DNA from: a virus
Length of the DNA stretch: 34,618 nucleotides
Direction: 5' to 3' (one strand)
Virus record (IMG/VR): IMGVR_UViG_3300025000_000278
Coordinates: 1 to 34,618 of that record
Both the position numbers and the translations under genes were made by a program. The notes below the pieces were generated by a model. That model saw only the letters and a list, made by a program, of their open reading frames with translations. It was not told the origin of the DNA and did not search any database. Position 1 is the first letter of the stretch. Each line of letters opens with the position of its first letter. Shown one piece after another: positions 394 through 34,575 of this stretch.

Positions 394-2050
394 GGACTAC
401 CTTGCTTGGGTGAAACAGTATCCTCAACGAGTGAATAACGAGCGGAAGCTGCTGATCAAAAACATCATCCTGCCACTGTTGGCGCGTGAGGACATCACGT
501 TTGATGAAACGACGTACCGCAACTGTCTGAAGTATTGTCAGCATTGGTACTATCCACTCTTCCCCTATCAGAAGTTCTGTTACGCGTTTGTCTTCATGTA
601 CGATGCGGAAGGGTATCCGGTCTTCGACAACTTTCTCTTCATGATGGGTCGCGGCAATGGCAAGGACGGATTCATGATGCCGTTGATGAACTTCTTTCAG
701 ACCCCGCTGTTTGGCATCAAGAACTATCATGTCGACATCGTGGCTAACGCAGAGGACCCGGCGCACAACTCCTACCTCGTCGTGTACAACATGCTGGAGG
801 CCAACGCTGCGAAAGTACGCGGCCTGTTCTACTGGAACAAAGTCGAGATCATCAATCGCGAGACGCAATCCATCCTTCGTTACAACACCTCCAATGCCAA
901 GACGAAGTACGGCAAACAAACCGGAGCCATCTTGTTCAACGAGTACCACACCTATGTCGACTATTCGCAGATCAAGACGTTCACATCGGGCTTGGGAAAG
1001 ATCAAGCATCCGCGAACTTTCATCATCACCACCAACGGCGAAGTGCGGGAAGGTCCTCTGGATCAGATGCTCGAATTGTGTCGGCAGATTCTCAACGGTG
1101 AACTGAAGCATCTGCGAATCTTCCCCTTCATCTGCAAGATCGACGAGGAGGCGGAGATTGACAAGCCCGAGGCTTGGGAGAAGGCAAATCCAAGCATGGA
1201 GTTCCTGCCCGAACTCAAGCGTCAGATTCAACGGGATTACGAGATGATGAACGTCTCACCCAGGCTTCGCAACGAATTCATCACAATGCGTATGAATCTT
1301 CCGCGGATCAATGCCGAAACGGCGGTCGTAGAGTTCGAGAAGGTCATCGCCACCAATTACCTCGTTGAGAAGTTGCCGGATGGCAGCGAACGAAGGATCG
1401 AGCGCGAGTTCCCGGATTTCACCGACGAACTGACGGTCGTAGGACTCGACTATGCGGATCTGCGCGACTTCGCTTCGGTCCGATTCATCTTCAAAAAAGA
1501 CGGGATGATCTACACCAAGGGGATGACCTGGGTCAACACCCGATCCCCGTTCTACCGTGACATCAAGTTCGATCTCGCCAGCATCGGGCAAAACGAGTTC
1601 ATGGATTTCGTGCTCGTGGACGCGCCGACGATCGATCCCGAACTCTGTGCCAAGTACATCTACGACCATGTGGATCAATACCAAATCGTCAAGATCGTCA
1701 TGGACAACTACAAGTTCCGCCTGGTCCGCCAGGCTTTTGAAGCCTATGGGTTCTCGGTGGAAAGCAAACAGAATCCCTTTGGGGCGGTTCGCATGATTTA
1801 CAACTACTCATCCGTCCTGGCGATGACCATTCCGTCGATCTTGTTCTATCTCCAGGAAGAGAAAATCATTGCGGAGAAAAGCGCCATGTGGCGTTGGGCG
1901 ATCAACAACACCGGGTTGAAAGTCGGGTCGGATGGCAACATGAGCTTCTTCAAGATTGAACCTCGATTGCGCAAAAACGACCCGTTCATGGCATTCGCCG
2001 CCGGGATGAGCGCCGAACAACTGTTGGATGTACGGACCATCTACATCTAG
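371..2050 (+). CDS. terL: terminase large subunit
   Basis: Packaging ATPase and nuclease (559 aa). The N-terminal half carries a Walker A variant GRGNGKD (about residues 93-99) and a Walker B-like strand AILFNEY (about 186-191). The C-terminal half looks like the RNase H-like nuclease: GLDYAD (about 358-363) and later acidic residues in VLVDAP and IVMDN. Length and order match Terminase_1-type (HK97-like) large subunits. Oddity: Asn stands where the Walker B Asp is usual (FNEY rather than FDEY). Start: ATG at 371 or the in-frame GTG at 362; both overlap terS and have weak ribosome binding sites, suggesting translational coupling. Confidence 0.95.
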   Translation: MFICREIEDYLAWVKQYPQRVNNERKLLIKNIILPLLAREDITFDETTYRNCLKYCQHWYYPLFPYQKFCYAFVFMYDAEGYPVFDNFLFMMGRGNGKDGFMMPLMNFFQTPLFGIKNYHVDIVANAEDPAHNSYLVVYNMLEANAAKVRGLFYWNKVEIINRETQSILRYNTSNAKTKYGKQTGAILFNEYHTYVDYSQIKTFTSGLGKIKHPRTFIITTNGEVREGPLDQMLELCRQILNGELKHLRIFPFICKIDEEAEIDKPEAWEKANPSMEFLPELKRQIQRDYEMMNVSPRLRNEFITMRMNLPRINAETAVVEFEKVIATNYLVEKLPDGSERRIEREFPDFTDELTVVGLDYADLRDFASVRFIFKKDGMIYTKGMTWVNTRSPFYRDIKFDLASIGQNEFMDFVLVDAPTIDPELCAKYIYDHVDQYQIVKIVMDNYKFRLVRQAFEAYGFSVESKQNPFGAVRMIYNYSSVLAMTIPSILFYLQEEKIIAEKSAMWRWAINNTGLKVGSDGNMSFFKIEPRLRKNDPFMAFAAGMSAEQLLDVRTIYI

Positions 2051-2062
2051 AAAGGAGGTAAC

Positions 2063-3211
2063 ATGGGAATTTTTGATTTTCTGATTGCCCGACCGGACGG
2101 TTCGATCAGTCCCCCGACCGCCAGTGAAGAGTGGATACTTCAACAACGGGCGGATCGGTTAAGGATTCAGGAGTTGGCCATCGAGAAGGCGGTCACGATG
2201 ATCTCGCGGGTCATTGCGAAAGCCGAGTTTCTGGTCTATAGGAAAAGAGAAGGCAAGATTCTGCCGACGAAAGACAGCGTCTATTACAATCTCAACATCC
2301 GACCGAACCCCAACCAAACCGGGACCGTCTTCTGGAACAACGTCATCCATCAACTTCTGAAAGAAGGGGAAGCCCTCGTCATCGATGACAACGGGTTCTA
2401 TCTGGCCGACACCTTCAGTAAGGGCGAGGAAGTGAAGTATCCGCGCTCCTTCAAGGATGTCCGGGTCGGGAACGTTGAGTATCGATACAAGGCTTTCAGC
2501 GCTCGCGATTGCCTGTATCTCACCTTGGGCGAAGGGGACACGAAACACTACCTCGCGAATTACTTCAGCGAGATCGGCGACTTGTTGGCCTTTGCCGCTT
2601 CGGACTACAAAGAGCGCAACACGAAGCGTTGGCGCGTCAGTACGCAAGCCACCGGGACGGAAGTGAAGTCCGCGGAGACTGGGAAACGGCTCAAGGGTCA
2701 GGATTACGCGGACATGTTGGCACGTCAGCTGAGCGATCCGAAAGTGCGCGCGGTCAACATCGACTCGACCGTCATGGTGGACTCGCTGAATAGTGGCGAC
2801 GCCAAGACCTCGTCCGATGTCCAAGGCCTGCTCAAGGAAACCATGATCGCGGCAGCCTTCGCGTATCACATCCCCCAAGATGTCTACTTCGGGATCAAGA
2901 CCGAAAAATCGACGTCCATCGACGACTTCATCACCTTCGCTTGCGACCCGATCTTTGAAATCATCGAAGATGAAATCAATGCGAAATGGGTCTCGAAGGA
3001 GGAATATCTCTCCGGCGAGAAAGTCAAAGCAGACAAGTCGCGTGTGAAACACACCGATTTCTTCGACACGGCCGACAGTGAATACAAGTTGATGGGATGT
3101 GGCTACAGTCATAACGATCTGCGAATTGCGAAGGGCTTGGAGCCCATCGATGAACCTTGGGCCAACGAGCACAACTTCACGCTGAATCTCGGGAAAGGAG
3201 GTGACAAATAG
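2063..3211 (+). CDS. HK97-family portal protein
   Basis: Dodecameric portal at the head vertex through which DNA enters and leaves. 382 aa, typical of the short HK97 portal group, with the usual N-terminal LAIEKAVTMISRVIAKAEFLVYRK helix, the NIRPNPNQTGTVFW segment and the late IPQDVYFG motif. Strong GAAAGGAGG ribosome binding site 7 bases before ATG. Lies between terL and the protease, as in HK97-like phages. The stop codon overlaps the next start by one base. Confidence 0.93.
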   Translation: MGIFDFLIARPDGSISPPTASEEWILQQRADRLRIQELAIEKAVTMISRVIAKAEFLVYRKREGKILPTKDSVYYNLNIRPNPNQTGTVFWNNVIHQLLKEGEALVIDDNGFYLADTFSKGEEVKYPRSFKDVRVGNVEYRYKAFSARDCLYLTLGEGDTKHYLANYFSEIGDLLAFAASDYKERNTKRWRVSTQATGTEVKSAETGKRLKGQDYADMLARQLSDPKVRAVNIDSTVMVDSLNSGDAKTSSDVQGLLKETMIAAAFAYHIPQDVYFGIKTEKSTSIDDFITFACDPIFEIIEDEINAKWVSKEEYLSGEKVKADKSRVKHTDFFDTADSEYKLMGCGYSHNDLRIAKGLEPIDEPWANEHNFTLNLGKGGDK

Positions 3212-16847: not shown

Positions 16848-16948
16848 TGTCCGAGAGAATCGAAGAGATTGAATTGAGCGATCTCGACTACAGTGTCGAG
16901 ATCGCTTTCCTGCTCGCCCAGGAAGAGGAGGGGAAGAAACATGACTAA
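16844..16948 (+). CDS. tiny acidic protein between holin and lysin
   Basis: 34-codon ORF that overlaps the holin stop (ATG inside GAATGATG) and the lysin start. GGAAGG lies upstream at suitable distance. It is acidic (ERIEEIELSDLDYSVEIAFL), with no signal or membrane segment. The codons for SDLDYSVEIA also form a 12-bp hairpin. It may be a real short protein or mainly a device that couples translation of holin and lysin. Confidence 0.4.
   Translation: MMSERIEEIELSDLDYSVEIAFLLAQEEEGKKHD
16877..16906 (+). other. 12-bp inverted repeat upstream of lysin
   Basis: Perfect stem AGCGATCTCGAC / GTCGAGATCGCT with a 6-base loop TACAGT, 34 bases before the lysin ATG. Only TTCC follows, so it is not a full terminator. 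It could delay lysin expression relative to the holin by folding the mRNA, or protect the downstream message. The role is inferred. Confidence 0.6.
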
Positions 16949-17876
16949 AACGAATCTCGGGTTAGTGGAATACGTCAAATCCAAACTTGCACTGAAAACC
17001 ATCTACATGCTCGGTGGATTCGGGCGGATCCTGACTCAGGCAATGATCGATCGCCGTATCAATATGGGATGCCCGCACACGATCCGGAATCTATCTACAA
17101 TACAAGCCGGGATAGGTCGATACTGCTTCGACTGTGTCGGATTGATCAAAGGGTATCTTTGGGAGATTTCCCCGGGCAGAGTCGACTACAACATTCCCAA
17201 AGGATCCGATCAGAACGTCGGCATGATGTACAACAGTTGCACTCAAAAAGGAGTGCTCGTATCCATGCCTGATATTCTAGGACTGTTGGTATTCACAAGG
17301 GATTTGGGACACGTCGGAGTCTACATTGGTAGGGATGCAGCAGGGAAGCGGCAATACATCGAAGCCACTCCGGCATGGGGTAAATGGGGAGTCTGTCAAT
17401 CAAACGACGACATCCGTTCCTGGGCGTTCTGGGGAAAGTATCACCTAATCGAGTACATTGAGCCGGTTGTTGAACCAGCTGTCCCGAAACTGAAATTCAA
17501 AGCCGGTCAAAAAATCGTTCTCAACGGGAGGGTATACAAGAACTCACTCATGGGTGGTCCGGGTGCGATCTTCTCCAAACGTGTAGGTTACATTCGATTT
17601 CTGGTCGATGAAGAAATTGTGCCGGCACCATACCACATCGATGGATTAGGTTGGGTCAAAGAGGAGTCACTAGCATTAGCACCAATCACGATTGAGATTC
17701 CCAAAATCAAGACCGGTGACAAGGTAAAGATTTCCGGGACACATTATGCCACCGGTGAGAAAGTCCCGTTCTGGGTTAAACTACGCGTCCATACAGTGGC
17801 TGCTGTATCAGGATCCAAAGCGCGTCTCAAAGAAATCAACTCATGGGTGAACATTAAGGATCTCAAGAAGGTTTAG
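16941..17876 (+). CDS. endolysin, NlpC/P60-type with SH3-like C-terminal domains
   Basis: 311 aa peptidoglycan hydrolase. Residues 1-170 form a cysteine peptidase: YCFDCVGLIKG gives the nucleophile (Cys65) at the head of a helix, LGHVGVYIG gives His124, and YIEATP follows. Residues ~185-245 and ~258-311 are two SH3-like strand-rich modules (FKAGQKIVLNGRVYKNS; IKTGDKVKISGTHYATGEKVPFWVK), likely wall binding. I chose ATG 16941 (GAGGAGGGG 8 bases upstream); upstream in-frame codons overlap the tiny ORF. Acts on the cell wall after holin action. Confidence 0.88.
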   Translation: MTKTNLGLVEYVKSKLALKTIYMLGGFGRILTQAMIDRRINMGCPHTIRNLSTIQAGIGRYCFDCVGLIKGYLWEISPGRVDYNIPKGSDQNVGMMYNSCTQKGVLVSMPDILGLLVFTRDLGHVGVYIGRDAAGKRQYIEATPAWGKWGVCQSNDDIRSWAFWGKYHLIEYIEPVVEPAVPKLKFKAGQKIVLNGRVYKNSLMGGPGAIFSKRVGYIRFLVDEEIVPAPYHIDGLGWVKEESLALAPITIEIPKIKTGDKVKISGTHYATGEKVPFWVKLRVHTVAAVSGSKARLKEINSWVNIKDLKKV

Positions 17877-17880
17877 AGCG

Positions 17881-18189
17881 ATGGATTGGTTACTACAAAG
17901 TATCGCCACTAACCTGGTGTGGGCGGCGCTTGGCGCCATGATGAGTTATATCCTTTTCCTTCGTAAGCAGCTTAAGTCAATGAAGAACGCGCTTGTTGCA
18001 TTACTTCGAAATGCAATCGTATCAGCGTACAATAAGTCGGTCGAACGGAAATTCGCACCGATTTTCGAACGTGAGAACGTTCAAAAGCTCTTCGATGAAT
18101 ATAAAATCCTTGGTGGAAACGGTACGATTGATCACTTGATTGATGAATTCCATGAACTTCCAACGCATCAGATCGAGCAAGCCCCCTGA
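17881..18189 (+). CDS. second lysis-module membrane protein (holin-like)
   Basis: 102 aa. One N-terminal membrane segment (about residues 5-27, LVWAALGAMMSYILFL), then a charged helical region with AYNKSVERKFAPIFERENVQ and LGGNGTIDHLIDEFHELPT. This arrangement recurs in small membrane proteins beside lysins in Bacillota phages. It may be a holin, antiholin or accessory lysis factor. Four bases after the lysin stop, and it is the last gene before a strong terminator. Confidence 0.6.
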   Translation: MDWLLQSIATNLVWAALGAMMSYILFLRKQLKSMKNALVALLRNAIVSAYNKSVERKFAPIFERENVQKLFDEYKILGGNGTIDHLIDEFHELPTHQIEQAP

Positions 18190-18371: not shown

Positions 18372-18549
18372 TTGAGGTAAGGAGGACTCATCTTACTTCA
18401 AACCTAACGCTCATTATTGAGCGAAGATCATCGATTGAAACGCTAACCAGTACGCGTTAAACAAATAACTGGCGCGACCATTAGTCGCTTACCCGTATGC
18501 GACTGAAAAGTAACGGGCGAGAATATCCTCCTTCGTGGAGGATTTTTTT
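18372..18549 (+). ncRNA. predicted type III antitoxin RNA (tandem pseudoknots)
   Basis: About 175-nt RNA between its own promoter and its own terminator, ending 11 bases before the toxin ATG. It starts with a hairpin (GAGGTAAG / CTTACTTC, 10-base loop), then CGCTCA-TTAT-TGAGCG. Two H-type pseudoknot units follow. Unit 1: stem 1 AACGC(18439)/GCGTT(18454), stem 2 CCAGT(18447)/ACTGG(18468). Unit 2: stem 1 AGTCGC(18483)/GCGACT(18499), stem 2 CCCGT(18492)/ACGGG(18513). Both have a 3-nt loop 1 (TAA/TTA), 2-nt loop 2 (AC/AT) and an A-rich 8-9-nt loop 3; the period is 44 nt. Terminator: ATCCTCC-TTCGT-GGAGGAT-T7 (18525-18549). In type III systems such repeats bind and inhibit a ToxN-like RNase. Confidence 0.72.
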
Positions 18550-18559
18550 AGGGGGAAAC

Positions 18560-19027
18560 ATGATCGAATTTGGGTTATATACTATGACAGATGAGTATAT
18601 GCATGATTATTATCCAGCCAGATATCCTCAAGATAAGGCATTCAAACGACCATTTTTTTTAGTTATTGATGATACTTCCGTAAATGGTTTGATTTGGCTT
18701 GTTCCACTTAGCAGCAAAACTGATAAATATTCTCCAATTTTAGCTAAGTATGAGAATGCTGGAAAGATAATCCATCTATATGGAAGTAGTGATTCCGTTA
18801 TTTTAACCCAGAATGTTGTTCCAGCCCTACCTAGACATATTGATGAAGAGTTTCAAGTAAGGCAAATACATTATGTTATGCATAGCGATTTGATTAAGAA
18901 AGAGATTCAAAAGAAAGTGAGTGCCGTTAGAGTTCTGATTAAAAGAGGATTGATTCCGGATCACGAGGCAATTAAATTGTTGGAGCAAAGACTTCTAGAT
19001 GAGATCAAAACTGACAAATTTATATGA
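18560..19027 (+). CDS. ToxN/CptN-like endoribonuclease toxin (predicted)
   Basis: 155 aa. The first half is strand-rich with KRPFFLVIDD and GLIWLVPLSSKTDKYSP, the pattern seen near the start of ToxN/AbiQ-fold toxins (a barrel related to MazF/Kid). QNVVPALP and a long helical C-terminal half follow. I chose ATG 18560 (GGGGG 5 bases upstream); the frame is open further upstream but that would cross the terminator. Terminator-then-toxin order and the pseudoknot RNA upstream are the defining layout of type III toxin-antitoxin loci, where leaky read-through makes the toxin. Size and the 44-nt repeat period fit the CptIN/TenpIN groups better than ToxIN (36 nt). Remote similarity; catalytic residues not identified. 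Confidence 0.62.
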   Translation: MIEFGLYTMTDEYMHDYYPARYPQDKAFKRPFFLVIDDTSVNGLIWLVPLSSKTDKYSPILAKYENAGKIIHLYGSSDSVILTQNVVPALPRHIDEEFQVRQIHYVMHSDLIKKEIQKKVSAVRVLIKRGLIPDHEAIKLLEQRLLDEIKTDKFI

Positions 19028-19092
19028 AACAATTATTGGAAAAATTGTATGAAACGTTTGATTACGATACAGAGCCGCAAAACCTTGTGAGT

Positions 19093-19114
19093 ACCCATGC
19101 TAAATGGGTTTTTT
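19093..19114 (+). terminator. terminator after toxin gene
   Basis: ACCCAT-GCTAA-ATGGGT followed by TTTTTT. A 30-codon ORF (19024-19116, starting ATGA over the toxin stop) runs into this hairpin and is probably not a gene. Confidence 0.8.
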
Positions 19115-19152
19115 AAAGCCATGATTAAGAACTATCTAAAAGGAGTACATGT

Positions 19153-19398
19153 ATGAGAAAAATCAGTGATCTCTCTGAGCAAGGGAAGGAAAACCTTCTC
19201 GACAAATTACGTACGATATTTGAGGACATTGGACTTGGCTTAGATAAAGGTGAATCATTCATTCAAAATGCATTGGTTCACGTATCAGATCGCTGGGAGA
19301 TTAGTGAAAAGGATCTTTACGAATTCTACATGGGTTATTTCAATGGAGAAAGTCGAAAAAACTCATCAATTTTTGATGACGAGCAATTAGGAGATTGA
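19153..19398 (+). CDS. hypothetical protein, 81 aa
   Basis: Not recognised. Acidic helical protein (KENLLDKLRTIFEDIGLGLDKGESFIQNAL, then EKDLYEFYMGYFNGE). AAAAGGAG lies 8 bases before ATG. No membrane segment. It stands alone between the toxin terminator and a tiny ORF, in the AT-rich accessory region, so it is probably expressed from the prophage. Function unknown. Confidence 0.6.
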   Translation: MRKISDLSEQGKENLLDKLRTIFEDIGLGLDKGESFIQNALVHVSDRWEISEKDLYEFYMGYFNGESRKNSSIFDDEQLGD

Positions 19399-19435
19399 CT
19401 TTCATCGACGTATAAGAGTATTAGGAGGTGATATT

Positions 19436-19534
19436 ATGATCCTGGCATTCTGGTTGGAGTGCTTTCTAGATTTCTACCGTGAGGTTGAGAAATCCGGATT
19501 TACTAAGCAGCATAGTGACGAGAGAATGATTTAG
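19436..19534 (+). CDS. tiny MILA-family protein, copy 1
   Basis: 32 aa, too short for normal gene finders, but TTAGGAGGTGATATT precedes the ATG (a near-perfect ribosome binding site) and the product MILAFWLECFLDFYREV recurs in the 36-aa ORF at 21527 (about 21 of 32 positions identical, with the same upstream bases). The conserved part is aromatic and amphipathic. Function unknown; a small toxin or membrane-active peptide is possible. Confidence 0.55.
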   Translation: MILAFWLECFLDFYREVEKSGFTKQHSDERMI

Positions 19535-19636
19535 TATACAGAGTAATAGTTTTCCTAGAATCTAAGTTATTATCTAGGCTGAATTATCAATCGTTTTATG
19601 ATTATATGATCCTATAATTTTAAAGTTTCTTACTAG

Positions 19637-19645
19637 TGTTATTAT
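19637..19645 (+). promoter_or_regulatory. extended -10 promoter of the HNH gene
   Basis: TGTTATTAT matches the extended -10 form (TGnTATAAT); no clear -35. Start expected near 19652, just before the GAGGGGGGAG ribosome binding site, so the leader would be very short. Confidence 0.5.
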
Positions 19646-19669
19646 ACAGTGACGAGGGGGGAGCTAAGC

Positions 19670-20710
19670 ATGTCAAAGCCTAATTTCAATGTCGTTGTAT
19701 TCGTATTTCTGTTTATTTTACCAATTTTCATACTTTTCAAAGTTTTGTCAGCAATTGGTTCTATACTTACCAATCAACTAACATTAGTTTTAGTACTTAT
19801 TCTTTTGGCTTTTGCTATTATATATAAAATTCTTGAGTACTTTTACTACCAGTCCGATGATTTTCTAGAGATTAAGAGGCGATTTGAGGACTATGTTAGC
19901 GACTGTAATGGTTTGAATGCACATATAGATGAGCTGAAACTAACATATTCCAACCTTGAGAAAACCCAATATGGAAATGCTAGTCTATCCGATTCAAGTA
20001 ATTACAATTTTAGAAGAGTACATCAAGTTGACGCAGTAAAGTCTAATTTCGTATATGAATGTTCAGCTCTAATATGTAAAAATGCGGAAGCACAACCATT
20101 CAAATATCTGTGTAAGTACTTTAATATAAAGCCTGATGAGAAATCACTCAGTAATTTTGAGAAAGTTTTGAATAATTTCTCTGCAGCTGAGGAAGGGAAA
20201 ACCTTTCTACATGATAAACTCGAAAGTATAAAGTTGTCGGTTAAAAATGATGTTCCTTGGTATATTGGTAAATTTGGTATGAAAAAGTTAATGCATAACT
20301 TGGGTTTTTGGGAAGTGGATTTTAAGACGATTTATTATCCAACTTATTCTTTTAGGTACATAAGCCCCGGTGGGAACAAGTCAACTCGTTGTGATATTAC
20401 ATTAGATATTAGAAACCTAAATGATTTCATAAAGTATCTTTCAAATATTGTGAAATTTAACAAAAGTGTTGAAGGCCAAAGAGCAATCATGACTTCAAGT
20501 TTGAGAGAATACATAAAGAAACGAGATAAATACACCTGTAAAAAATGTGGAGTGTCATCTAGCGATGAACCACATTTGCTATTAGAAATCGATCATATCA
20601 TGCCTGTTTCAAGAGGTGGATTAACTACGGAAAGTAATTTACAAACGCTTTGTTGGAAATGCAATAGAGCAAAGGGTGCAAAGATCCTAGCTGAGGAAGC
20701 AAGATACTAG
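19670..20710 (+). CDS. membrane-anchored HNH endonuclease
   Basis: 346 aa. Two N-terminal membrane segments (about residues 8-30 and 37-54) place the rest on the cytoplasmic side. Residues 60-120 are helical; 200-270 form an alpha/beta region (WYIGKFGMKKLMHNLGFWEVDF, TRCDITLDIRNL). A classic HNH zinc finger closes the protein: CKKC (Cys290, Cys293), EIDHIMPVSRGG (His309), SNLQTLCWKCN (Asn323, Cys328, Cys331). Unlike the packaging-type HNH at the end of the window it has its own promoter and lies in the accessory region, so defence against other phages or superinfection exclusion is plausible. I chose ATG 19670. Confidence 0.75.
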   Translation: MSKPNFNVVVFVFLFILPIFILFKVLSAIGSILTNQLTLVLVLILLAFAIIYKILEYFYYQSDDFLEIKRRFEDYVSDCNGLNAHIDELKLTYSNLEKTQYGNASLSDSSNYNFRRVHQVDAVKSNFVYECSALICKNAEAQPFKYLCKYFNIKPDEKSLSNFEKVLNNFSAAEEGKTFLHDKLESIKLSVKNDVPWYIGKFGMKKLMHNLGFWEVDFKTIYYPTYSFRYISPGGNKSTRCDITLDIRNLNDFIKYLSNIVKFNKSVEGQRAIMTSSLREYIKKRDKYTCKKCGVSSSDEPHLLLEIDHIMPVSRGGLTTESNLQTLCWKCNRAKGAKILAEEARY

Positions 20711-20774
20711 TTCATTTCAATTTTTTTAGGGATTATCGTTTTAAATGCATACGTGATTACTAGGAGGTGATTGA

Positions 20775-20936
20775 ATGATCCTGGCCATTATGCAAATCGT
20801 AATCAAAAAGACCGCTCTTCCGGCGGCCTTTTTTAATTGGATCGATAGTGTTTGTGTGCATGTTGCTATTTTTTGTCGCACAAATTTGGATGAGAGACAT
20901 CATGTGTGCTATAAACAGTTTGCAGAAAGGAGGTGA
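20775..20936 (+). CDS. possible tiny MILA-family ORF, copy 2
   Basis: TAGGAGGTGATTGA precedes ATG, and the first codons ATGATCCTGGCCATT match copy 1 almost exactly. After ten residues (MILAIMQIVI) the frame enters a terminator (20805-20834), and the remaining codons look non-coding, so a functional product would have to be short or made by read-through. Its TGA falls inside the ribosome binding site of the next ORF. Probably a decayed copy or a leader. Confidence 0.25.
   Translation: MILAIMQIVIKKTALPAAFFNWIDSVCVHVAIFCRTNLDERHHVCYKQFAERR
20805..20834 (+). terminator. terminator downstream of the HNH gene
   Basis: AAAAAG-A-CCGC / GCGG-C-CTTTTT stem with one mismatch, loop TCTTCCG, then T. About 95 bases after the HNH stop and inside MILA copy 2. 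The A-rich left arm makes it usable in both directions. Confidence 0.75.
20886..20915 (+). promoter_or_regulatory. promoter of the 47-aa ORF
   Basis: TTGGAT (20886-20891), 18-bp spacer ending in TGC, TATAAA (20910-20915): an extended -10 promoter. Start expected near 20922, giving a leader of only about 20 bases that is almost entirely ribosome binding site. Confidence 0.6.
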
Positions 20937-21294: not shown

Positions 21295-21526
21295 GTAGTA
21301 ATTGTAACATTCTTGCCACGAAATCTGACATTATGCAAAACTATCAAACACCACTTAAACCCTTCTTATACAATAAATATCATGTTTTATCATGTTGACA
21401 CCATTTAAAACTATCTAAATTCTTTAATACGCTATTGTGAGGTAGTAGTATATAAATCACAGAATAATTAGTATTTCGTTAGGATAATGCAAAATAAGGT
21501 CATATTTGGGAATAGGAGGTGATATT

Positions 21527-21637
21527 ATGATCTTAGCGTTCTGGTTAGAATGTTTTCTAAGCTTCTATAGGGATGTGGATGCTTCCAATCTATCGGACCA
21601 GCAAAAAGATGAAGTAATGATTTGGTATGTAAGTTGA
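21527..21637 (+). CDS. tiny MILA-family protein, copy 3
   Basis: 36 aa. AATAGGAGGTGATATT before ATG is the same ribosome binding region as copy 1, and MILAFWLECFL-FYR-V is shared. The DNA differs at many third positions (CTG/TTA, GCA/GCG, TTG/TTA) while the peptide is kept, which argues for selection on protein. Unknown function. It lies about 60 bases before the attP arm repeats. Confidence 0.55.
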   Translation: MILAFWLECFLSFYRDVDASNLSDQQKDEVMIWYVS

Positions 21638-21699: not shown

Positions 21700-21719
21700 A
21701 GTTGATGGAAAGTTGATGG
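21700..21719 (+). repeat. attP arm-type repeat, left copy
   Basis: AGTTGATGG twice with an 11-bp period (AGTTGATGGAAAGTTGATGG). Identical to the 20 bp at 21894-21913, on the other side of the core. Probably bound by the N-terminal domain of the integrase. Confidence 0.75.
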
Positions 21720-21814
21720 AATTTATTTGGCGCGCAATAGATTTAATGGCGTAGAGTTGCATAAAATATGGTAATAAAGGTAAAATCGGCGTTAACTTGT
21801 GTAGATGTCCTGTT

Positions 21815-21893: not shown

Positions 21894-21913
21894 AGTTGAT
21901 GGAAAGTTGATGG
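21894..21913 (+). repeat. attP arm-type repeat, right copy
   Basis: Exact second copy of the 20-bp element at 21700-21719, in the same orientation and again as two AGTTGATGG units 11 bp apart. It lies 52 bp from the core and 38 bp from the integrase stop. Confidence 0.75.
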
Positions 21914-21950
21914 GATTTTTAGAAATTCGACCTTCGGAAATTGACATTAT

Positions 21951-23225
21951 TTAAGAAGATACCTTCTTGAGACCGCTTTTTGTGAGCTTAATATGATCAG
22001 GAAATCTCTTTTTTGAACTTGCATGAGTTCTTCTCGACAGTTTCAACGGGGCGACAACTGTCATTGATTTTACCATCTCGATTTGTTTTTCTCTCCAAAG
22101 ATGCGCGTAAGTTTTGTCGATTTCTTCTCGCGAATCACCTACACGCTTGGCAATTTGCATATCACTATATCCCATATTTATTAAGTAAGAAACATGCGAA
22201 TGTCTGAAGTCGTGAATATTAATAGGTTCAATCCCAGCAACTTTAAAATAGTAGTCCTTAATATTACATAATGTCGTCGGTGGTAACCTATCATAGAAGC
22301 TGACAAGTGGGCGATCAAGTGAATAGCCAGGAAGAGTTCGATAATGGTAGATCAGGTTGATTAATAACTGATCCACTTCATCTGGTACTACAATATTTCG
22401 ATTTCCGTTTTTTGATTTCGGTGGTGTAATAATTTTGTTCGTATAGTCCCAGTTCTTGTAGACACTAAGTTCTTTATTGATGAAATCGTAGTCTCTAATA
22501 TCGAGCGCCATGAGTTCACCCTTACGTAGTCCACACCAGAACAACAATGAGAATATGATTGTATGCTGCATTCTATTCAATTCTTCATCTGGATGGCTTT
22601 TAGTCACCCTTGTATGGGCTTGTATCACACCATACAGCGTTCTATACTGTGAGGTGGTAATAATGGACATTGAAGGTAGAACAGGTACTGTACGGCGTTT
22701 CCTGAAGCCCACGTACCGTAATGGGTTAAAGTTGCACATCTTTTTTGTGATCGAGTATTCGAATATTGCATTGAGCAAAGTTTGTATTTTTTCAAGAGTT
22801 CTATTATCATAATGTTCTTCTCTTTGATTGCCAGAAGCTTTGGTGCCACTTACATAGGTGGCACTAAGTAACTTCTCTTGCCATTTTTCAATATGGATCG
22901 GTTCGATGCTTGTGAGAATCATCTCACCAAAAAAGACCTTAATGTGTTTTTCGTAAACTTTCTGATTATCATATTGAGAACGCAACTTCATGAGGTCACG
23001 GTCCTTTTGTTTCATGTATTCAGTAAACAAATCATTAAATGTGATAATCGTGCTTGCATCACGACTTTTGATTGAATCCATAAACGCAGATTCAGCATCA
23101 ATTGCATCCTGTTTTGACCATTTATCATTTCGCTGCTCTTTTTTTCGCCAATTACCGGTAGGGTCCTTGTAATTCAATCTAAAACCATAGACATACTTTT
23201 TGTCTTTTTTTAGCTTGGTAAGCAT
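21951..23225 (-). CDS. int: tyrosine integrase
   Basis: 424 aa. Order: N-terminal AP2-like arm-binding domain (KKYVYGFRLNYKDPTGNWRKK, residues ~9-29), SAM-like core-binding domain (~62-165), and catalytic domain with Arg234 (GLRKGE), His338/Arg341 (HDFRHSH) and Tyr373 (TYAHLW). Catalyses integration at attP. I chose ATG 23225 because AAGGAAG lies 7 bases upstream and the start follows the repressor stop by one base (TAG-T-ATG); an in-frame ATG at 23261 would overlap the repressor. Co-transcribed with the repressor, so it is probably expressed in the lysogen. Confidence 0.93.
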   Translation of the reverse strand: MLTKLKKDKKYVYGFRLNYKDPTGNWRKKEQRNDKWSKQDAIDAESAFMDSIKSRDASTIITFNDLFTEYMKQKDRDLMKLRSQYDNQKVYEKHIKVFFGEMILTSIEPIHIEKWQEKLLSATYVSGTKASGNQREEHYDNRTLEKIQTLLNAIFEYSITKKMCNFNPLRYVGFRKRRTVPVLPSMSIITTSQYRTLYGVIQAHTRVTKSHPDEELNRMQHTIIFSLLFWCGLRKGELMALDIRDYDFINKELSVYKNWDYTNKIITPPKSKNGNRNIVVPDEVDQLLINLIYHYRTLPGYSLDRPLVSFYDRLPPTTLCNIKDYYFKVAGIEPINIHDFRHSHVSYLINMGYSDMQIAKRVGDSREEIDKTYAHLWREKQIEMVKSMTVVAPLKLSRRTHASSKKRFPDHIKLTKSGLKKVSS

Positions 23226-23226
23226 A

Positions 23227-23862
23227 CTAGAACTTCCTTCGAATTTCGATGACTCGTCCAACTATTTCTACTGGGATGGATATGATCTCTTCATGATTGA
23301 AAACAAGCGGCTCGTAATTATTATTGAAAGGGATCAACATAATGCCTGATTCACGTTTAACAACTCGTTTTACCGTAGCATCATGTCCATTGATCAGGAC
23401 TATTCCAATTTGTCCACTATCAACATCTGCTTGTTTCTTAACGATTGCAATATCACCATCAATGATTACTGGTTGCATGCTATCACCCCTGATTTGTAAT
23501 GCAAAAAAGTCCCCAGTCTTCGCTAATTCCGGAGATATTTCTTCGTAATCAATAATATCTTGAACTGCTTCGATTGGTAACCCCGCAACAACTTTTCCCA
23601 AAACCGGTATCTTTATTCCGTTCGTTGATGGAATCGGCATCATATCTCTATGGTAGTCATTTTCATAACCAAGTAGCCATGTTTCTTTCACACCTAATGC
23701 AATTGCAATTCTAGAAATCTTGTCACTCTTTGGCATCACCTTACCGCTCATATATTGACTAATAAAAGATTTACCAATTCCGGACTTTTCTGATAAATCA
23801 GATTGTTTGAATCTTTTCATTTTGAGTGCTTGATGAAGCCTTTCAACAAAGATGCTGTCCAT
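23227..23862 (-). CDS. CI-like repressor, XRE helix-turn-helix plus S24 peptidase
   Basis: 211 aa. The helix-turn-helix is at ~18-45 (KQSDLSEKSGIGKSFISQYMSGK). The C-terminal LexA/CI fold has the self-cleavage site VVAGLP (Ala93-Gly94), catalytic Ser128 in RGDSMQP and Lys165 in ATVKRVV. Keeps lytic genes off in the lysogen and is expected to cleave itself when RecA is activated by DNA damage. Divergent from the Cro-like gene across a 166-bp control region. Confidence 0.93.
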   Translation of the reverse strand: MDSIFVERLHQALKMKRFKQSDLSEKSGIGKSFISQYMSGKVMPKSDKISRIAIALGVKETWLLGYENDYHRDMMPIPSTNGIKIPVLGKVVAGLPIEAVQDIIDYEEISPELAKTGDFFALQIRGDSMQPVIIDGDIAIVKKQADVDSGQIGIVLINGHDATVKRVVKRESGIMLIPFNNNYEPLVFNHEEIISIPVEIVGRVIEIRRKF

Positions 23863-34198: not shown

Positions 34199-34223
34199 AA
34201 AGACGGCAATCACCGTCTTTTTT
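34199..34223 (+). terminator. terminator between late promoter and HNH gene
   Basis: AAAGACGG / CCGTCTTT stem, loop CAATCA, run of T. It ends the early/replication transcript and any RNA from the candidate late promoter unless it is read through. Confidence 0.85.
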
Positions 34224-34239
34224 GCGTAATTGGAGGCAA

Positions 34240-34575
34240 ATGAGAACACTCGAGGAACTAGTGGCCATCATTACCGTGGATCCGATCAAGTTTTACAAGA
34301 CTAGAGAATGGCGAGATAAACGGGAAGAAATCATGGGTAGGGATCATGGTGAATGCCAGCGATGTGCCGGAAGATGGAAGAGTGATTTCCCAATCAAGAA
34401 TATACGGTTGAGTAAGGCGAAATATGTGCATCATATTCAACCCTTAATTGAAGCGCCTTATCTTTGCCTTGAGAACGACAACCTCGTTAGCTTATGTTTC
34501 TCTTGCCACGAGACGGTTGAGAGACGAGGATTCAGTAAAGAAAAGAAGATTCCGCTCACGATTGAGCGATGGTGA
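34240..34575 (+). CDS. HNH endonuclease of the packaging module
   Basis: 111 aa. FYKTREWRDKREEIMGRDHGECQRCAGR, then YVHHIQPLIEAPYLCLENDNLVSLCFSCHE: zinc-binding Cys pairs and the HHI...N...H signature. HNH proteins beside the small terminase (HK97 gp74 type) are needed for terminase cutting at cos. GGAGG 4 bases before ATG 34240. Confidence 0.9.
   Translation: MRTLEELVAIITVDPIKFYKTREWRDKREEIMGRDHGECQRCAGRWKSDFPIKNIRLSKAKYVHHIQPLIEAPYLCLENDNLVSLCFSCHETVERRGFSKEKKIPLTIERW

Follow-up and report, generated by a model that had tools for sequence, protein, structure and literature searches.

The HNH gene lies in a low-GC accessory stretch

The window analysed here is a virus record of 34,618 bases with a siphovirus gene order. 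The best matches of its large terminase come from a faecal phage and from Erysipelothrix, Staphylococcus and Listeria phages, so the host of the phage is likely to be a member of the Bacillota. Close relatives of the phage were not found by megablast of the phage collection, and viral relatives were not found with the window integrase and the window toxin as queries. GC content is 50-57% across the first 15 kb and in most structural genes but drops to 34% at 19-22 kb, and the HNH gene lies within this 34% GC accessory stretch. The following features were placed on the window.

16893-17876, endolysin-like ORF, upstream of the low-GC stretch
17881-18189, one-helix ORF, after the endolysin-like ORF and before the low-GC stretch
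18439-18517, plus strand, probable antitoxin RNA of type III, with two H-type pseudoknot-capable units in tandem at a distance of 44 nt
18525-18550, terminator, between the pseudoknot-capable units and the CptIN-like toxin
18560-19027, plus strand, CptIN-like toxin of 155 aa (NCBIfam NF047359)
19656-19663, plus strand, ribosome-binding site GGGGGGAG, 6 nt before the ATG, read from the sequence
19670-20710, plus strand, gene for a putative membrane-anchored HNH nuclease of 346 aa (P0001), from ORF, translation and homologues
20812-20826, plus strand, terminator-like hairpin, from a consensus scan only
21951-23261, minus strand, integrase gene, beyond the low-GC stretch
34222-34575, plus strand, second HNH ORF, of packaging type, at the end of the record

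A preliminary description had set the gene between two toxin-antitoxin loci. The upstream one holds up: 18439-19027 on the plus strand is probably a type III toxin-antitoxin locus, a neighbour of the HNH gene and not part of it. Its pseudoknot units, terminator and CptIN-like toxin are laid out as in type III systems (PMC5086642), and two such pseudoknot-capable units were obtained in 1 of 3000 shuffles. The toxin matched NF047359 with E=1.1e-18 and 67.5 bits, which is below the curated cut-off of 90, and an Rfam search for a type III antitoxin gave no significant match. An 81-aa ORF lies between the toxin and the HNH gene. Downstream of the HNH gene, by contrast, there are short ORFs only, none of them linked to a toxin-antitoxin family. 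The gene had also been credited with its own promoter and terminator. A consensus scan of the plus strand at 19027-19670 revealed no sigma-70-like site, and sites in the region were rarer than in shuffles; the scan thus lends the promoter no support. The terminator-like hairpin does exist, but it does not follow the gene immediately: it is about 100 nt downstream, among small ORFs.

Two kinds of repeat were observed in the same region. A ribosome-binding site followed by an ATGATC(C/T)T(G/A)GC start occurs in three copies that are 81-84% alike (19416-19446, 20755-20785 and 21507-21537), two of which flank the HNH gene. The first and third copies begin similar ORFs of 32 and 36 aa (MILAFWLECFL-FYR-V), and the repeat pattern had no match in viral contigs. 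Just outside the integrase gene, a 25-nt direct repeat (96%), AGTTGATGGAAAGTTGATGG, is present at 21700-21724 and 21894-21918, and is possibly an integrase arm-site or attachment-region repeat.

Membrane helices, a conserved middle domain and an intact HNH domain

About 70 full-length relatives of P0001 were found. They are 31-64% identical over ~300 residues across phyla, which excludes a chance ORF, and the family carries no name. The protein is divided as follows.

19685-19765, plus strand, membrane helix 1, residues 6-32 (AlphaFold2 helix; Kyte-Doolittle peak of 3.06 at residues 8-26)
19775-19852, plus strand, membrane helix 2, residues 36-61 (AlphaFold2 helix; Kyte-Doolittle peak of 2.82 at residues 37-55)
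19853-20485, plus strand, conserved middle domain, residues 62-272, ~210 residues (alignment and models)
20495-20686, plus strand, HNH nuclease domain, residues 276-339 (Pfam PF01844 and invariant columns)

The two hydrophobic helices fit the earlier reading of the window protein as two-pass, but several relatives have one helix instead of two, and the conserved feature is therefore the anchor rather than the two-pass arrangement. Helix 2 is the anchor that most relatives keep, and it is followed by a (Y/F)(F/Y)x(S/G/N)xxF motif. The next part had been described as a ~230-residue linker or alpha-beta region. In the family alignment it is instead a conserved domain, made up of helices, a disordered stretch (94-125), a helical part (133-211) and a beta hairpin (225-244) with a GGN turn, of which the GG is invariant. 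This domain had no match in Pfam, the PDB or BFVD.

Structure prediction, which had been proposed for the middle region, was performed on the whole protein and on residues 59-346, and gave models of moderate quality (pLDDT 73.5 and 76.7; pTM 0.56 and 0.54, respectively). Foldseek was used to compare both models with the PDB and the whole protein also with viral models. The HNH domain alone found matches, namely the nicking HNH structure 4h9d, with a probability of 1.00 but an E of 0.1, and McrA-type enzymes; none was returned for the middle domain.

Pfam PF01844 matched residues 290-337 with E=9e-13, and the catalytic His/Asn and zinc-binding CxxC pairs of the HNH superfamily are present. D308, H309, N323, N332 and K335 as well as the zinc cysteines C290, C293, C328 and C331 are invariant in 37 aligned sequences. 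By its sequence, the HNH domain has every catalytic and zinc position intact, and DNA cleavage is its putative activity. This agrees with the intact HNH finger of the preliminary description, which also named His309 correctly.

The family is anchored, sporadic and mobile

Relatives covering most of the protein are encoded on plasmids, phages or prophages, viral contigs and chromosomes of Bacillota, Pseudomonadota, Actinomycetota, Bacteroidota, Fusobacteriota, Thermodesulfobacteriota and candidate phyla. Of 71 sequences, counted with near-duplicates, 68 have a strong N-terminal membrane helix ahead of the conserved domain, and the sequence of this helix is not conserved across the family. L010 and L056 are without a strong helix, and L013 is marginally below the threshold. 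L010 (560-1540), a gut phage relative, has a soluble helical stretch in place of the membrane helix, comparable to the helix-less homologues of the SNIPE nuclease discussed below. Several relatives carry an R/K-rich stretch directly after the helix, such as LYRLVRYIRKER in L076. By the positive-inside rule, basic residues at this position suggest that the C-terminus, and with it the nuclease, is cytoplasmic.

The family tree mixes phyla, with Saccharibacillus (Bacillota) nested with Undibacterium (Pseudomonadota) at a support of 100/98, and on this tree the gene is horizontally transferred. Its occurrence is sporadic: the full-length gene is present in 7 of 100 Psychrobacter genomes and in 3 of 71 genomes from the family of a Paraclostridium genome (G001). 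An occurrence as housekeeping genes only had been named as one outcome that would refute a defence role, and the homologues do not show it. They occur in prophages, on other mobile elements and, in several hosts, near defence genes.

No constant partner gene was found among 149 neighbours, and no neighbour family occurred in more than two of ~25 neighbourhoods, so the gene forms a module of its own. It adjoins an integrase gene in four viral lineages (L054/L055, L069, L076 and L079), and in one further lineage (L059-L061) it follows a CI-type repressor gene of the same strand at a distance of 24 nt. These positions suggest that the gene is expressed in the lysogen.

An uncontrolled count gave about five independent contexts with defence neighbours among the ~22 loci examined. 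ZacAB neighbours the gene in L016, PDC-S02 in L019 and L025, and a DpdF-like helicase in L032. In the Psychrobacter loci L029, L030 and L031, the HNH gene immediately follows Zorya I B-C-D on the same strand, and the copy in G060 likewise comes directly after Zorya I genes, with ZorD upstream. Among the 100 Psychrobacter genomes, ZorC is present in 14 and the HNH gene in 7; the two are adjacent in three genomes (G011, G012 and G060) and far apart in G070. In L030 (genome G012)/L095, ZorD is split between frames, and so is the HNH gene. The Zorya-adjacent cases may stem from one ancestral event. Membership of Zorya was considered and rejected: most Zorya loci are without the gene, most copies are without Zorya, and most ZorC-bearing Psychrobacter genomes lack it. 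Adjacency in so few ZorC genomes points to a defence-island link, not to a Zorya component.

A putative nuclease acting on incoming DNA

The preliminary description proposed that a nuclease tethered to the membrane could cut DNA at the point of entry. This fits the anchor, the intact HNH domain, the predicted cytoplasmic C-terminus and the accessory, mobile, lysogeny-linked and, in several hosts, defence-associated context, and it has a proven precedent of like layout in SNIPE (PMC13190303). The family, the conserved anchor, the intact active site and the context are established by computation; cutting at entry and protection against phages we infer. Since the parts are in the same order as in SNIPE, we regard it as the most likely reading, with an even chance of being correct, that the prophage carries a single gene for a membrane nuclease which cuts DNA on its way into the cell, for superinfection exclusion or defence. 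In the lysogen, the prophage would produce this single-component DNA entry nuclease. The protein would be held in the cytoplasmic membrane by one or two N-terminal helices, with the remainder inside the cell, and tethering would keep the nuclease off the chromosome. The middle domain would sense or hold the incoming injection complex or DNA; this sensing is a guess, as no solved or modelled structure among those searched is related to the domain. The C-terminal HNH domain would then nick or cut the DNA during entry, and the outcome would be superinfection exclusion or defence against phages and possibly plasmids.

Five other roles were weighed. In the first, the protein is an abortive-infection or toxin-like membrane nuclease, which infection releases or activates, so that the host chromosome is damaged and cell death stops the phage. 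The probable type III toxin-antitoxin locus nearby and the solitary gene are consistent with this role, and HNH effectors are generally common in such systems. However, conserved anchoring suggests that the nuclease is kept off the chromosome, and a partner sensor or antitoxin gene is absent; we consider this role unlikely.

A second possibility keeps the cutting at entry and changes the target, with the nuclease directed mainly against plasmids or conjugative DNA, or used for exclusion by the mobile element itself. Five unrelated plasmids carry the gene (in Psychrobacter, Pseudomonas savastanoi, Vagococcus, Arthrobacter and Rhodococcus), and on two of these it adjoins replication or mobilisation genes. 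Viral contigs, however, carry it at least as frequently, and no link to a specific transfer system was seen. It too is improbable in our estimate.

Phage-encoded HNH proteins commonly serve packaging, and the protein might likewise degrade host DNA or take part in replication or packaging in the lytic cycle. The packaging role suits another ORF of the window, the packaging-type HNH ORF at 34222-34575, which would come ahead of the terminase genes should the record be circularly permuted, and that identity was rejected for 19670-20710. Together with the lysogeny-module position, the membrane anchor and the occurrence of the family on plasmids and chromosomes, this makes a lytic role quite improbable.

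The remaining two roles are very improbable. A homing endonuclease of the free-standing kind, or another type of selfish HNH element, would account for a solitary, scattered gene with an HNH domain, but the conserved membrane anchor and the 210-residue domain have no evident part in homing, and no intron, intein or constant insertion site was seen. An outward-facing nuclease for DNA uptake or nutrition would have a model in membrane-anchored nucleases such as the competence nuclease EndA, but is at odds with the basic residues on the domain side of the helix, the cysteine-rich zinc site, which suggests the cytoplasm, and a mobile rather than core gene.

Comparison with known membrane-sited and HNH systems

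HNH nickases and McrA-type restriction enzymes (4h9d, 6ghc and 5zmm) share the HNH fold of the C-terminal 60-70 residues, but they are without a membrane anchor and without a match to the middle domain. In the Psychrobacter relatives (L029, L030, L031 and L095-L101), the HNH domain is followed by C-terminal Ltp repeats (PF07553, 6.8e-29), which are absent from the window protein and from most of the family. In its classic form, Ltp is a lipoprotein that lies outside and acts in superinfection exclusion.

Zorya is likewise a membrane-sited defence with a DNA-cutting effector, which in type II is the HNH nuclease ZorE. Full-length homology to ZorE was not found: NF041791 scored 19.7 bits against a cut-off of 600, on the HNH part only. 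Zorya I stands directly ahead of three of the seven Psychrobacter copies, whereas most copies of the family were not seen near Zorya. No motor genes of the ZorA/ZorB type were apparent beside the window copy in the ORFs read by eye.

The closest parallel is SNIPE (PD-lambda-1), which combines a membrane helix, DUF4041 and a GIY-YIG nuclease in one gene (PMC13190303). SNIPE resides in the inner membrane with its nuclease on the inner side. It binds the tape measure protein and cuts phage DNA while this is being injected, and it turns toxic once its anchor is removed (PMC13190303). Both SNIPE and the HNH family consist of an N-terminal membrane helix, a middle domain and a C-terminal nuclease within one gene, and both occur in prophages, phages and plasmids. 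SNIPE homologues have one N-terminal membrane helix in 59% of cases and two in 7%; the window protein has such a transmembrane helix by hydropathy, AlphaFold2 and the family survey. In contrast, its nuclease is HNH and not GIY-YIG, and the long helical linkers of SNIPE are absent from the HNH family. No Pfam PF13250 match to DUF4041 was reported for the window protein, and homology was not detected by hhalign against a profile of nine DUF4041 proteins (probability 0.3-0.9%); the best profile match spans 26 columns with an E of 0.06 and amounts to a hint at most. With a different nuclease and no detectable DUF4041 homology, the protein is not a SNIPE. The surveyed loci do include DUF4041 genes: L093 (phage ES18) encodes a SNIPE-type DUF4041 protein at 1647-3176, possibly a moron and close to the tape measure gene, and in L089 and L092 a NINE protein gene is directly upstream of the DUF4041 gene.

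In the open-licence literature, SNIPE was the only membrane-bound nuclease that surfaced, and a membrane-anchored HNH nuclease family was not found. We tentatively propose, at somewhat less than an even chance, that the HNH family arose independently of SNIPE as a second family of entry nucleases tethered to the membrane, spread across many bacterial phyla, which prophages, some of them with the gene directly behind a CI repressor, use for superinfection exclusion, and whose sensing domain recognises the injection complex. The strategy would be that of SNIPE, carried out by unrelated parts. SNIPE shows that a nuclease can separate self from non-self by location rather than by sequence. If our proposal is true, this membrane-location strategy arose more than once, with prophages using the HNH family to guard their host, and DNA entry may be sensed in a new way by the middle domain. 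As a one-gene system, it is directly testable.
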